A stretch of 64,000 bases of DNA from Hyphomonas johnsonii MHS-2 (GTDB taxonomy: Bacteria > Pseudomonadota > Alphaproteobacteria > Caulobacterales > Hyphomonadaceae): positions 124,001 through 188,000 of the forward strand of contig NZ_ARYK01000003.1 of the NCBI RefSeq assembly GCF_000685275.1, written 5' to 3'. Shown here one piece after another: positions 53,374 to 59,304 of this stretch. The position numbers were made by a program, and so were the translations under genes. The notes under the pieces are model-generated. The model searched no databases, was not told where the DNA came from, and saw only the letters and a list, made by a program, of their open reading frames with translations. The number at the start of each line of letters is the position of its first letter. Positions within the stretch are counted from its first letter, which is position 1.

Positions 53374-55084
<1,711 letters not shown>

Positions 55085-55088
<4 letters not shown>

Positions 55089-55654
55089 CCCTGCTCCTTT
55101 CCGCGCTTGATCGACAGGACGCCGGTGCGGCTGACCTCGACGAGGCCGAGTGGACGCATCAGGTCGATGAACTGGCTGATCTTGTCGGACGTTCCCGTCA
55201 GTTCGAAAATGAAGCTCTCATTGGTTGTGTCGATCACCCGGGCCCGGAAGATCTCGGCGATGCGCAGGGCTTCGACGCGGACTTCGCCCGTGCCGGCGAC
55301 CTTGACGAGCGACAGCTCGCGCTCGATGCCGCGCTTGGACTTGGTGATGTCGATGACTTCGCCGACCGGCACAATGCGCAGGAGTTGGGCCTCGATCTGT
55401 TCAAGAATGTGCGGCGTGCCCTGCGTGACGATGGTGATGCGCGACCGGTGCTGGCCGACATCGACTTCGGCGACCGTCAGGCTGTCAATGTTGTAGCCAC
55501 GCCCCGAAAACAGGCCGACGACGCGGGCGAGGACGCCCGGCTCGTTGTCGACCAGAACGGCAAGTGTCCGCCGCTCGACCTCTTCGTCCGGGTGGGAGAG
55601 GAAATAGGCCGACTTCGGGCTGCCGGGGGGCTGGTCGTGGGATCCGTCGCTCAT
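55085..55654 (-). CDS. ilvN: Acetolactate synthase small subunit
   Basis: 189-residue regulatory subunit: ACT domain (LAVLVDNEPGVLARVVGLFS, residues 31-50, with the GYNIDSLTVAE strand) and the C-terminal domain of the large IlvN/IlvH type. Binds valine for feedback inhibition of the catalytic subunit. Overlaps both neighbouring unknown genes by four bases. Confidence 0.95.
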
Positions 55655-56349
55655 GATGCTTTTTCCGTGCTTGGGCGGGACGCCGGGGCGGGATCCAGGA
55701 CAAGGCCTGGCCTGCGGGTCTGGAGCTGTGCTTTCAGGACCTGCGCGCGGTCAATCGCTTCGCGCCGGTTGCGGGCGCTCTGGTCGTCATACCGTTCTAT
55801 GATCTTGTCGAGACGGCGCGGATCGAGGTGCGCCTGCAGTTCCGAGACCATCAGGCGCCGGCAATCGTCGATGAAATCCGCACTGCTGTCGCCCGTCGGG
55901 CCGGTGTCGCGGGTCATCGCGTTCAGTTCGAAATAGGCCCACATGATGGCATCGAGGATGGGGGGGCGGTGGCCGCGATAGGCGCCTTCCTTCTCGGCTC
56001 CCTTCATCTCGGCATCGACGTTGGGAAAGAACATGCGCCCGCGTTCGACCAGGGCCGACAGGCTGATCAGCAGCGATGTCTTGCCGCCGACAAAGGTGCC
56101 GTCATTGGCCTGAAGGTGGCGCGTGCGGGCAAACATGGCGGCCCGGCCAAGTGCTTCTATGGCCGTGGTGCCCCATTCGAGGCTGGCAGAATCAATCGTC
56201 TGGCGCAGGTGTTCGGTCTGCAGCCGCCGCTGGCGGCGGGTTTCGGCCCGCGACGCAACGGCGCTGACCAGCGCGACCAGGGCCGAGCTGATCGCCAGCA
56301 CGACGTCGAGATGTTCGCGCATCAGGGCGAGGATGTCATTTGCCGTCAT
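55651..56349 (-). CDS. Unknown membrane-anchored protein (gene X) between ilvB and ilvN
   Basis: 232 residues: an N-terminal hydrophobic helix (about 16-33), then a basic, alpha-helical cytoplasmic domain rich in Arg/Gln (SRAETRRQRRLQTEHLRQ) with no known motif. Start at 56349 behind GGGAG; a longer version starts at ATG 56388, overlapping the ilvB stop. Its stop overlaps the ilvN start by four bases. Similar in layout (one anchor, helical tail) to the protein inserted between pheS and pheT. Confidence 0.72.
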   Translation of the reverse strand: MTANDILALMREHLDVVLAISSALVALVSAVASRAETRRQRRLQTEHLRQTIDSASLEWGTTAIEALGRAAMFARTRHLQANDGTFVGGKTSLLISLSALVERGRMFFPNVDAEMKGAEKEGAYRGHRPPILDAIMWAYFELNAMTRDTGPTGDSSADFIDDCRRLMVSELQAHLDPRRLDKIIERYDDQSARNRREAIDRAQVLKAQLQTRRPGLVLDPAPASRPSTEKAS

Positions 56350-56387
56350 GTCGTCTCCCGGTCCTGAATCGAACGCCAGGCTGGCCA

Positions 56388-58181
56388 TCAGACCAGACCT
56401 TTCCCCGCCTCATCGATTTCGTTACCAGTTATCTCGCCCAGGATCATCTCATTATGGGCAGAGCCTGATGGAATCATCGGCAGGCAGTTTTCGGCCTTCT
56501 CGACGCGGCAGTCGAACAGGACAGGGCCGTCATGATTGACCATTTCCATGATCTTCGCGTCCAGTTCGGCCGGCGAGTCGCACCGGATGCCGTAGCCACC
56601 GAGGGCTTCGGCCAGCTTCACGAAGTCCGGCAGGCTTTCGGAATAGGAGTGCGAATAGCGCTCGCCATGCAGCAATTCCTGCCACTGGCGCACCATGCCC
56701 ATCCATTCATTGTTCAGGATGAACACCTTGACCGGCAGGTTATGCTGAACCGCGGTCGAGAATTCCTGCATCACCATCTGGATCGACGCCTCGCCGGCAA
56801 TATCGATGACCAGGGCGTCCGGATGCGCCGTCTGCACGCCCACCGCGGCCGGCAGGCCGTAGCCCATCGTGCCGAGGCCGCCACTGGTCATCCAGTGGTT
56901 CGGTTCCTCGAAATGGTAGAACTGGGCGGCCCACATCTGGTGCTGGCCGACTTCGGTCGTGATGAACGTGTCCGGTCCCTTGGTCAGCTCGTACAGGCGC
57001 TGGACGGCGTGCTGCGGTTTGATGACCGTGTCGGAATTGGCATAGGCAAAGCAGTTGCGCCCGCGCCAGGCCGCGATTTCCCTTTTCCACTGGGCCAGGT
57101 CCGGCCGCTTGCCGCGCCGCCGGGCGAGTTCCTTCAGCAGGGCGTCCAGCGTTTCGGCGCAGTCGCCGATGACCGGGATGTCGACGCGGACGATCTTGTT
57201 GATCGAGGAAGCATCAATGTCGATGTGGACCTTTTTCGATTTCGGCGAGAAGGCGTCGATCCGGCCTGTCACGCGGTCGTCGAAGCGGGCGCCGAGGCAG
57301 ATCATCAGGTCGCAATCATGCATGGCATTATTGGCTTCGAAACTGCCATGCATGCCGACCATGCCGAGCCAGTCGGGGTGCGATGCAGGGAAGGCACCAA
57401 GGCCCATCAGCGTCGACGTGACCGGAATGCCGGTGACGTCCTGCAGTTCGCGCAGCAGTGCGGAGGCGCGCGGACCGGAATTGATCACGCCACCACCGGT
57501 GTACAGCACCGGGCGCCAGGCCGTCATGATGAGGTCGGCGGTTGCCTTGATGGCGTCGGCATTGGGGATCGTGCGCGGCAGGTAGGTCGGCTTGTGCACA
57601 CCCGCCTTGCCGACATAGGTGCCGGTTGCGAACTGCACGTCCTTTGGGATGTCGATGACGACCGGGCCGGGGCGTCCGGATGTCGCGATCAGGAAGGCCT
57701 CGTGGATGACTCGCGCCAGGTCGTTGACGTCGGTGACGAGGTAATTGTGCTTGGAGCAGCTGCGGGTGATGCCGGTCGTGTCGCATTCCTGGAACGCGTC
57801 CGTGCCGATCAGGTGGGTCGGGACCTGGCCGCACAGGACGACCATAGGAATGGAATCCATCATCGCGTCGGTGATCGGTGTCACCATGTTGGTCGCGCCG
57901 GGACCGGAGGTCACGAGCGCCACGCCGGGCCTGCCTGTCGAGCGGGCATAGCCTTCGGCCGCGTGGCCGGCGCCCTGTTCATGCCGGACCAGGATATGGC
58001 GGATGTCGGGCGCCCCGAAAAGCGCATCATAGATCGGCAGCACGGCGCCGCCCGGATAGCCGAACAGCGCGTCCACCCCCTGTTCGCGCAGGGCTTCGAC
58101 GACCATTTGCGCGCCGGACATGGTGCGCGGTTCGGCTTTAGGCGCGGAACGGGACTTGGGCTTTGCTGTTGTGGTGGTCAT
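56388..58181 (-). CDS. ilvB: Acetolactate synthase large subunit
   Basis: 597-residue ThDP enzyme. The catalytic Glu lies in RHEQGAGHAAEGYAR; an FAD-type middle domain follows; the ThDP-binding motif reads IAGEASIQM...ILNN, with GEA in place of the canonical GDG start. Condenses two pyruvates to acetolactate. Preceded by the ilv leader and attenuator; the N terminus has a basic Lys/Arg/Ala tail before the conserved GAQMVVEALREQG. Confidence 0.95.
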   Translation of the reverse strand: MTTTTAKPKSRSAPKAEPRTMSGAQMVVEALREQGVDALFGYPGGAVLPIYDALFGAPDIRHILVRHEQGAGHAAEGYARSTGRPGVALVTSGPGATNMVTPITDAMMDSIPMVVLCGQVPTHLIGTDAFQECDTTGITRSCSKHNYLVTDVNDLARVIHEAFLIATSGRPGPVVIDIPKDVQFATGTYVGKAGVHKPTYLPRTIPNADAIKATADLIMTAWRPVLYTGGGVINSGPRASALLRELQDVTGIPVTSTLMGLGAFPASHPDWLGMVGMHGSFEANNAMHDCDLMICLGARFDDRVTGRIDAFSPKSKKVHIDIDASSINKIVRVDIPVIGDCAETLDALLKELARRRGKRPDLAQWKREIAAWRGRNCFAYANSDTVIKPQHAVQRLYELTKGPDTFITTEVGQHQMWAAQFYHFEEPNHWMTSGGLGTMGYGLPAAVGVQTAHPDALVIDIAGEASIQMVMQEFSTAVQHNLPVKVFILNNEWMGMVRQWQELLHGERYSHSYSESLPDFVKLAEALGGYGIRCDSPAELDAKIMEMVNHDGPVLFDCRVEKAENCLPMIPSGSAHNEMILGEITGNEIDEAGKGLV

Positions 58182-58225
58182 CGGGGAACTCGGGATCTGG
58201 ATTGATTGGGACAGGGTTGGAATTG

Positions 58226-58254
58226 AAAAAGGGCCCCCTTGAGGAGACCCTTTT
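58226..58254 (-). terminator. ilv attenuator terminator
   Basis: On the minus strand, AAAAGGGTCTCC and GGGGGCCCTTTT pair (two G-T wobbles) around a TCAA loop and are followed by a T-rich tract. It lies between the leader peptide and ilvB, so it would stop transcription before the structural genes. Confidence 0.85.
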
Positions 58255-58261
58255 GTGCGCG

Positions 58262-58299
58262 CACCCGCAACTGGCGATATGATCAGCCAGTCACGGGTG
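58262..58299 (-). promoter_or_regulatory. Upstream hairpin of the ilv attenuator
   Basis: CACCCG..ACTGGC pairs with GCCAGT..CGGGTG around a ten-base loop. Its 5' arm covers the last codons (His, Pro) and stop of the leader peptide, so a ribosome on the leader would block it. Confidence 0.75.
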
Positions 58300-58329
58300 C
58301 CTAATTACGAGTACTTCAAGATTGCGCAC
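58291..58329 (-). CDS. ilv leader peptide
   Basis: Twelve-codon reading frame MRNLEVLVIRHP, starting with GTG. Five of residues 4-9 are Leu, Val or Ile (L, V, L, V, I), the end products of the operon. A GGAGGAAA ribosome-binding site lies at 58336-58343. Scarcity of charged branched-chain tRNAs would stall the ribosome here and change folding of the RNA ahead of the terminator: a classical attenuation arrangement. Confidence 0.85.
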   Translation of the reverse strand: MRNLEVLVIRHP

Positions 58330-58353
58330 TGTGCGTTTCCTCCAACGTCGACC

Positions 58354-59304
58354 TTAGGAATAATCTGCCTCTTTGCCCCTGTCAATCTCTCTATATAGGG
58401 CATGAATCACCCTTAGGCGCTGTTCTGCCTCGGGCGAGGGAATGCGTGGCCAGAATGGGAACTGCCGCCCGATCCAGGTAAATTGCCGCTTTGCATAGCG
58501 CCGCGTATCGCGTTTGGCGTTTTCGGCGGCCAGCTCCGCGCTGATCTCGCCGCGCGCGAAGGCGGTGAGCCAGGGCATGCCGTGCGCCTTCATGGCTGGC
58601 AGTTCCGGGTCGAGATCGCGTTCCATCAGGGCGCGCGCCTCGTCCATCGCGCCCTGCATCAGCATGCCTTCGAAGCGCCGGTCGATCCGCTGGTAGAGGC
58701 GCGACCGGGGCGGGGTAAGGGCGAAGCCGATCCATTCACCCTCCTTGAGCACGGGCGGCTGGCGGACCTCGTGAAAGTCTCCGAGCCGCCGGCCGGTTGC
58801 CAGCCAGACCTCGTAGGCGCGGGCGAGGCGTTGCCGGTCGCCGGTGCCGAGGCGCTCGGCGGTGTCGGGGTCAACCGGAGCGAGCCGGTCACGCAGGCCT
58901 TCGGCGCCTTCGGATTCGGCGATGGCGCGCACATCGGCGCGGACGTCTTCGGGAACCGGGGGGATATTGGACAGGCCCTGCGTCAGGGCCAGCAGGTAGA
59001 GGCCGGTGCCGCCGACAAGGATGGCGCGCTTGCCGCTGCGTTCGAGTCGTGTGATCTCGGCGCGGGCGTCTTCGAGCCATTCGCCAGTGGAATAACGGGT
59101 CGCCGCATCGACATGACCGAACAGGTGGTGCTGCACGCCGTCCATCTCTTCGTCATCGGGCCGCGCGCTGATGACTTTGAGATCGCGGTAGACCTGCATG
59201 GAATCGGCATTTATCACCTCGCCACCGAGGCGCTTGGCGAGACTTATGGCGAGGGCCGTCTTGCCGCTGGCCGTAGGGCCGTGAATGAGGATTGCCGGAT
59301 GCAT
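58354..59304 (-). CDS. miaA: tRNA dimethylallyltransferase MiaA
   Basis: 316-residue enzyme that isopentenylates A37 of tRNAs reading UNN codons. P-loop GPTASGKT at 9-16 and the GGEVINADSMQVYRDL segment are family marks. The last codons contain the ilv promoter. MiaA modifies Leu tRNAs among others, and MiaA loss affects attenuation in enteric bacteria (known), so its neighbouring position is suggestive. Confidence 0.96.
   Translation of the reverse strand: MHPAILIHGPTASGKTALAISLAKRLGGEVINADSMQVYRDLKVISARPDDEEMDGVQHHLFGHVDAATRYSTGEWLEDARAEITRLERSGKRAILVGGTGLYLLALTQGLSNIPPVPEDVRADVRAIAESEGAEGLRDRLAPVDPDTAERLGTGDRQRLARAYEVWLATGRRLGDFHEVRQPPVLKEGEWIGFALTPPRSRLYQRIDRRFEGMLMQGAMDEARALMERDLDPELPAMKAHGMPWLTAFARGEISAELAAENAKRDTRRYAKRQFTWIGRQFPFWPRIPSPEAEQRLRVIHALYREIDRGKEADYS
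58357..58385 (-). promoter_or_regulatory. ilv operon promoter
   Basis: Minus strand -35 TTGACA (58380-58385) and -10 TATTCC (58357-58362) with a 17-base spacer, placed inside the last codons of miaA. The inferred start of transcription is near 58350, just before the leader-peptide ribosome-binding site. Confidence 0.8.

Follow-up and report, generated by a model that had tools for sequence, protein, structure and literature searches.

A leader ahead of ilvB in Hyphomonas johnsonii that is very probably a ribosome-mediated transcription attenuator

The junction between miaA and ilvB on the minus strand of Hyphomonas johnsonii raises the question of how the genes for branched-chain amino acid synthesis that follow it are controlled. 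The initial annotation had read this junction as a complete transcription-attenuation leader that responds to the charging of Leu-, Val- and Ile-tRNAs. Our analysis of the window, which is the whole stretch of 64,000 nucleotides, and of related genomes supports the attenuation reading by conservation, by compensatory changes in the leader hairpin and by a position, start and peptide pattern that resemble Caulobacter. We conclude that the leader is very probably a ribosome-mediated transcription attenuator of the Hyphomonas ilvB operon and is related to the Caulobacter ilvBN attenuator. As to its completeness, promoter, reading frame, hairpin and terminator are in place, and no antiterminator could be demonstrated. 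This reading would place branched-chain amino acid synthesis of one genus, genes X and Y of the cluster included, under a known type of control by tRNA charging.

On the minus strand miaA (59304-58354, assigned from sequence) is followed by the leader, ilvB, gene X, ilvN, gene Y and ilvC. The large subunit of acetolactate synthase is encoded by ilvB (56388..58181, with ilvB-like matches in most of the genomes searched), the small subunit by ilvN (55085..55654, Pfam ALS_ss_C and ACT_AHAS_ss) and ketol-acid reductoisomerase by ilvC (53374..54453, Pfam KARI_N and KARI_C), whose true start is probably located downstream of the listed TTG. Gene X (55651..56388, 245 aa) gave no Pfam match above cut-off and no NCBIfam match, and gene Y (54438..55088, 216 aa) gave no match to either collection and has, by eye, a signal-peptide-like N-terminus. 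Neighbouring genes from ilvB to gene Y lie on the same strand and overlap by 1-4 nt, which fits a co-transcription of X and Y with the ilv genes, as far as gene arrangement can suggest it. A search of 60 other genomes found gene X in 30, of which 29 are among the 36 from the same genus and one belongs to another family. In each of the 30 it lies no more than 200 nt downstream of the ilvB match, and it also adjoins ilvB in the Henriciella-like named loci L097 and L099-L101. Gene Y was found in 35 of 37 same-genus genomes, the window's own included, and in none of 24 genomes from other families of the order, the two groups that this search covered; among the named loci L090-L110 it occurs only in L090-L095.

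A promoter at the end of miaA, a GTG-started frame of 12 codons with five Leu/Val/Ile codons in residues 4-9, a hairpin over its stop codon and a T-tailed terminator before ilvB had been proposed from the initial inspection, and each of these elements was recovered on the minus strand. The -35 element TTGACA (58380..58385) is separated by 17 nt from the -10 element TATTCC (58357..58362), which lies within the last codons of miaA. The Shine-Dalgarno motif GGAGGA (58338..58343) belongs to the leader frame GTG...TGA (58329-58291), which encodes MRNLEVLVIRHP and carries its regulatory codons CTT, GTA, CTC, GTA and ATT as codons 4, 6, 7, 8 and 9. Its stop codon (58293-58291) is part of strand 1 of the hairpin H1 (58300-58261; -29.5 kcal/mol, z -7.4). 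The intrinsic terminator AAAAGGGTCTCC-TCAA-GGGGGCCCTTTTT (58254-58226; -17.3 kcal/mol, z -3.4) follows, and 138 nt of the leader, folded together, reached a z of -5.2, with an equally stable fold in 0 of 200 shuffles. By eye, there is no clear Shine-Dalgarno motif ahead of the ilvB ATG (58182-58200).

The combination of these elements is confined to this site within the 64 kb. Both strands together contain seven short frames (8-30 codons) with at least five Leu, Val or Ile in six residues; a Shine-Dalgarno motif precedes two of the seven, and a terminator within 90 nt was found only at the ilvB leader. A simple promoter scan of 57900-58700 called no promoter, and a simple terminator scan of the same interval gave one terminator-like site, the ilvB leader itself, versus 0.9 expected in shuffles. 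As neither scan was above chance, they could not on their own carry the claim of an attenuator. An Rfam search of the window at gathering score returned no match.

Conservation was analyzed in the regions upstream of ilvB. Among 101 genomes searched, the own included, 98 gave some match and 88 an ilvB-like match (43-100% identity) that was followed up; 42 of the genomes searched, again with the own, belong to the same genus, two of which (G026 and G029) are fragmented and gave no full ilvB match. Together with 77 of 80 named loci (L109, L150 and L159 had too little sequence ahead of ilvB and were omitted) this yielded 165 upstream regions, with some genomes represented in both sources. The nearest ilvB among the named loci is that of Hyphomonas chukchiensis with 87% protein identity. 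Leader frame and terminator were found automatically in 140 of the 165 regions, and of the remaining 25, L052-L054, L108 and L117 contain a leader that is visible by eye but has a break in its T-run. Within the genus, where ilvB diverges by up to about 20%, the Leu/Val/Ile frame and the terminator were found in 40 of 40 regions, 38 of them distinct; their loss in close relatives is what the initial annotation had named as evidence against its proposal. The promoter TTGACA-17-TAT[T/G]CC is present in 38 of 38 distinct same-genus leaders, with an identical -35 hexamer and with TATTCC in 23 and TATGCC in 15 of them.

At least three Leu, Val or Ile in six residues occur in 38 of 38 distinct same-genus leaders, at least four in 33 of 38 and at least three in 138 of the 140 automatic leaders, counts that are upper estimates, chiefly outside the genus, because the frame picker prefers frames rich in these residues. 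A script shifted the automatic start downstream in 11 TTG-started leaders, including L093, and in L063 and L067, 13 in total, and L156 was excluded from the unique set for a false terminator. Comparable leaders were found upstream of ilvB in named loci of Caulobacter, Phenylobacterium, Methylocapsa and Agrobacterium, with leader peptides such as MRKTMIVLMERPFAG in Caulobacter (L116) and MRNILVLVGRP in Phenylobacterium, so that related leaders ahead of ilvB reach some Rhizobiales. In family f5 of the order (L073, L076, L077 and L078) no leader was found ahead of ilvB and the gene order differs; by eye, an ilvC-like coding sequence is located directly before ilvB in these loci. The set of 124 distinct leader sequences is supplied and allows the antiterminator question discussed below to be tested.

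Codon usage sets the leaders apart from the longer frames of the window. The valine codon GTA accounts for only 34 of 1392 Val codons in the window's open reading frames, which are a greedy pick of long frames and not a gene annotation, but for 65 of 82 in the same-genus leaders and for 71 of 122 across 58 clusters; at least one GTA is present in 38 of 38 same-genus leaders and in 55 of the 58 clusters. The reverse is true for the leucine codon CTG, with 1068 of 1762 Leu codons in the same window frames and 1 of 51 in the same-genus leaders, which use CTC and CTT in its place. This bias toward GTA and against CTG is in line with the theory of regulatory codons in PMC1183508, where modelling indicates that attenuation becomes highly sensitive only if particular synonymous codons are used and where the notion of a "rare codon" by itself is called an oversimplification. 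Anticodons CAC, GAC and UAC were recorded for tRNA-Val in the genome (among 30 of 41 tRNA matches), and the strong preference for the rare GTA amounts to a testable prediction on which valine tRNA is sensed.

Additional evidence for the structure came from covariation. Alignment A1 comprises 26 Hyphomonadaceae leaders, taken from 35 thinned family leaders (51 before thinning); it omits the near copies L010, L020, L021 and L036 as well as L046, L048 and L099-L101, which are divergent or L097-like. H1 has 84.9% of its cells paired in A1, and 11 of its 18 pairs are changed on both sides. The omission of L046 and L048 may inflate the paired-cell percentages given here for A1. RNAalifold on A1 predicted H1 and the terminator unaided, P0 being absent from the prediction. 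P0 denotes the pairing of GTGCGC at the start codon region (58329-58324) with GCGCAC immediately 5' of the terminator (58260-58255). Taken together, P0, H1 and the terminator scored above 500 of 500 shuffles of A1 for cells paired, for double-change cells and for the covariation score, and they outscored all slid versions; the number of pair types was not above chance, as 391 of 500 shuffles were as high. In an own-versus-other map of 455 pairs of leader segments over 58 clusters with GC-matched controls, H1 was the strongest signal (t -6.8), and the ten top pairs all belonged to it. The off state formed by H1 and the terminator is therefore well supported.

P0 is the match that had been put forward as a candidate antiterminator. 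The match itself holds: it is part of the minimum free energy structure, it is widely kept and 89.1% of its cells are paired in A1. Compensatory change is small, since both sides differ in one pair out of six and this itself reflects in part the register of the alignment, and across all 58 clusters the signal is weak (t -1.5). Furthermore, P0 by itself does not exclude the terminator. In the ATG-started leaders L042 and L043, GCGCAT replaces GCGCAC by eye, giving ATGCGC/GCGCAT. The leaders L046 and L048 of the same family have the short frames MYLNIVVLVM and MYMPKVLVI, and by eye their start region pairs with the pre-terminator segment in a changed P0, as ATGTATATGC/GCATATATGT in L048.

On this basis we propose the following mechanism. 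RNA polymerase would begin at about 58350, and a ribosome would start on the 12-codon leader. With charged Leu-, Val- and Ile-tRNAs it would reach the stop codon inside H1, which its presence on the leader is expected to disrupt, and depart; H1 would then re-form and the terminator at 58254-58226 would halt transcription ahead of ilvB. If one of the three is left uncharged, stalling on codons 4-9 would hold the ribosome close to the start codon and to the base of H1, and the polymerase would presumably read through. The response to the amino acids and the read-through on stalling are predictions of this model, and two candidates may disable the terminator in the stalled state, a weak helix of strand 2 with strand 3 or a pairing of the leader's Shine-Dalgarno motif and start codon with the 5' arm of the terminator.

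Strand 3 versus upstream segments, the 455-pair map, ribosome-masked folds, the duplex of Shine-Dalgarno motif and start codon, and the 2:3 helix were all tried, and none gave a convincing conserved antiterminator. The ribosome-masked folds were made both of single leaders and of the alignment; the initial annotation had seen no clear antiterminator pairing by eye. The classical scheme of 1:2, 2:3 and 3:4 pairing, in which the base of H1 strand 1 would be masked by a stalled ribosome, leaving the 3' end of strand 2, GGGTGCGC (58266-58259), free to pair with GGGTCTCC (58250-58243), seems plausible to us and falls just short of probable. This 2:3 helix consists of standard pairs in 89.7% of cells in the 26 leaders, compared with 38-73% when slid, and in register 18 of the 26 give it a favourable energy (-0.8 to -7.5 kcal/mol) and the other 8 an unfavourable one. 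At least four strand-3 bases pair upstream in 38 of 38 same-genus leaders. On the other hand, the helix is far weaker than the terminator and shows no covariation above shuffles in the 26 leaders; its foldability is at a mean z of +0.3 to +0.6 versus shuffles, with no leader at p<0.05, and strand 2 complements the strand 3 of other species better than its own. Consensus folding of the 26 leaders in the absence of strand 4 formed the helix partially with a stalled ribosome and fully with the ribosome at the stop codon, so that it shows up more at the stop codon than upon stalling. In the corresponding stalled-ribosome consensus fold, strand 3 was unpaired in 19 same-genus leaders and partly paired in the 26. 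For the Caulobacteraceae-type leaders L066, L068, L129 and L152, we observed a local hairpin of the GCUUG...CAGGC type that connects strand 2 with the beginning of the terminator and is possibly an antiterminator in that group; it is not above shuffles.

Another explanation assigns this role to the leader's ribosome binding site. The Shine-Dalgarno motif and the start codon (58343-58324), of which the former would be the 5' half, would pair with the stretch that extends from 58260 to 58243 and includes the 5' arm of the terminator, and this duplex would both prevent the terminator and block re-initiation on the leader. A stalled ribosome would bar new ribosomes and leave the Shine-Dalgarno motif bare, leading to read-through, while under rich conditions frequent initiation would cover it and let the terminator form. 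Of the 38 distinct same-genus leaders, 36 have a duplex that beats dinucleotide shuffles (p<0.05), and with -16.0 to -29.2 kcal/mol it compares well with the terminators at -14.0 to -19.8. Set against the segments of other species, five of six same-genus clusters (L002, L003, L008, L017 and L032) rank 0-8 of 57, but L016 ranks only 21 of 57, and by eye the altered start codon of L042 and L043 is matched by an alteration in its partner. Taken by itself, the Shine-Dalgarno pairing does not exceed shuffles in 18 of 18 distinct cases (p 0.064-1.0), and P0 taken by itself reaches p<0.05 in 6 of 18. Beyond the genus, only 3 of 20 further family leaders have the duplex at p<0.05, and no effect is left over the 58 all-family clusters (mean difference -0.3 kcal/mol, t -0.5). 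Consensus folding did not recover a duplex of the Shine-Dalgarno motif with the terminator 5' arm, and the complementarity may be incidental, since the motif faces a pyrimidine-rich arm. We consider this explanation unlikely, and slightly more doubtful still the general conclusion that the Hyphomonas antiterminator is the leader's own ribosome binding site, with read-through as the default of the empty site and with ongoing initiation, not the position of the ribosome on strand 1, permitting termination. Among other pairings, the Shine-Dalgarno motif (58343-58338) with the terminator 3' arm (58238-58226) was the strongest outside H1 (t -3.6) and was also paired when 19 same-genus leaders were folded to a consensus at full length, a signal that we do not rely on given 455 tests and energies no stronger than about -3 kcal/mol. 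The pairing of strand 1 with strand 3 gave t -2.8 in the same map and -3.3 when strand 3 was compared with upstream segments (58 clusters). A reading in which translation plays no part, with H1 and P0 acting like a riboswitch as the binding site of a protein or metabolite and with the Leu/Val/Ile frame being incidental, could appeal to the length and covariation of H1, but by eye the H1 loop is unconserved and the Leu/Val/Ile run, the Shine-Dalgarno motif and the position of the stop codon persist where adjacent codons differ, and the leaders are strongly enriched in GTA. It was rejected because of the missing Rfam match and the conserved frame, and we regard it as extremely improbable.

Ribosome-mediated attenuation, our preferred reading, can be compared with several known systems. 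In the leu, ilv and trp leaders of E. coli, stalling of the ribosome at codons for the product amino acid controls an intrinsic terminator. The Hyphomonas leader differs from these in that it has no clear 2:3 helix, that its regulatory codons are very near the start (codons 4-9) and that its stop codon is in strand 1. More distant is the ilvBNC operon of Corynebacterium glutamicum, which belongs to an unrelated phylum and is likewise under attenuation; according to PMC11857589, it forms terminator, antiterminator and anti-antiterminator hairpins that are supported by mutational analysis, whereas the antiterminators in Hyphomonas are candidates only. An ilvB motif in Leptospira is mentioned in an excerpt of PMC8632094, and one of PMC2965389 does not deal with ilv. 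Closer to Hyphomonas, a leader peptide ahead of ilvB, as in our case, has already been described for alphaproteobacteria (Vitreschak et al., 2004, as cited in a section of PMC1273637). A literature search whose terms did not include the genus name found no account of the Hyphomonas ilvB leader, and we make no claim that it is unpublished.

The closest counterpart is the Caulobacter crescentus ilvBN attenuator, which occupies the same gene and place; its attenuation is stated in PMC4117421 with reference to Tarleton, Malakooti and Ely (1994), and a figure legend of the same paper speaks of ilvIH. Like Hyphomonas, the named Caulobacter loci (L116) have a GTG-started leader and an intrinsic terminator, and their peptide begins with MR, followed by an Ile-Val-Leu run and then R-P. 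They differ in a peptide of 15 codons compared with 12 in Hyphomonas, in the sequences of the terminator arms and of H1, and in a weaker complementarity between ribosome binding site and terminator (L061, rank 13 of 57). The peptide MRNLEVLVIRHP fits the GTG-started pattern M-R-...-(I/V)VL-...-R-P loosely, with R-H-P for R-P, the pattern having been drawn up here from the named Caulobacter and Phenylobacterium loci and not being a published definition. Attenuation is a type of switch long known in related bacteria, and the Hyphomonas leader is very probably a further case of it.
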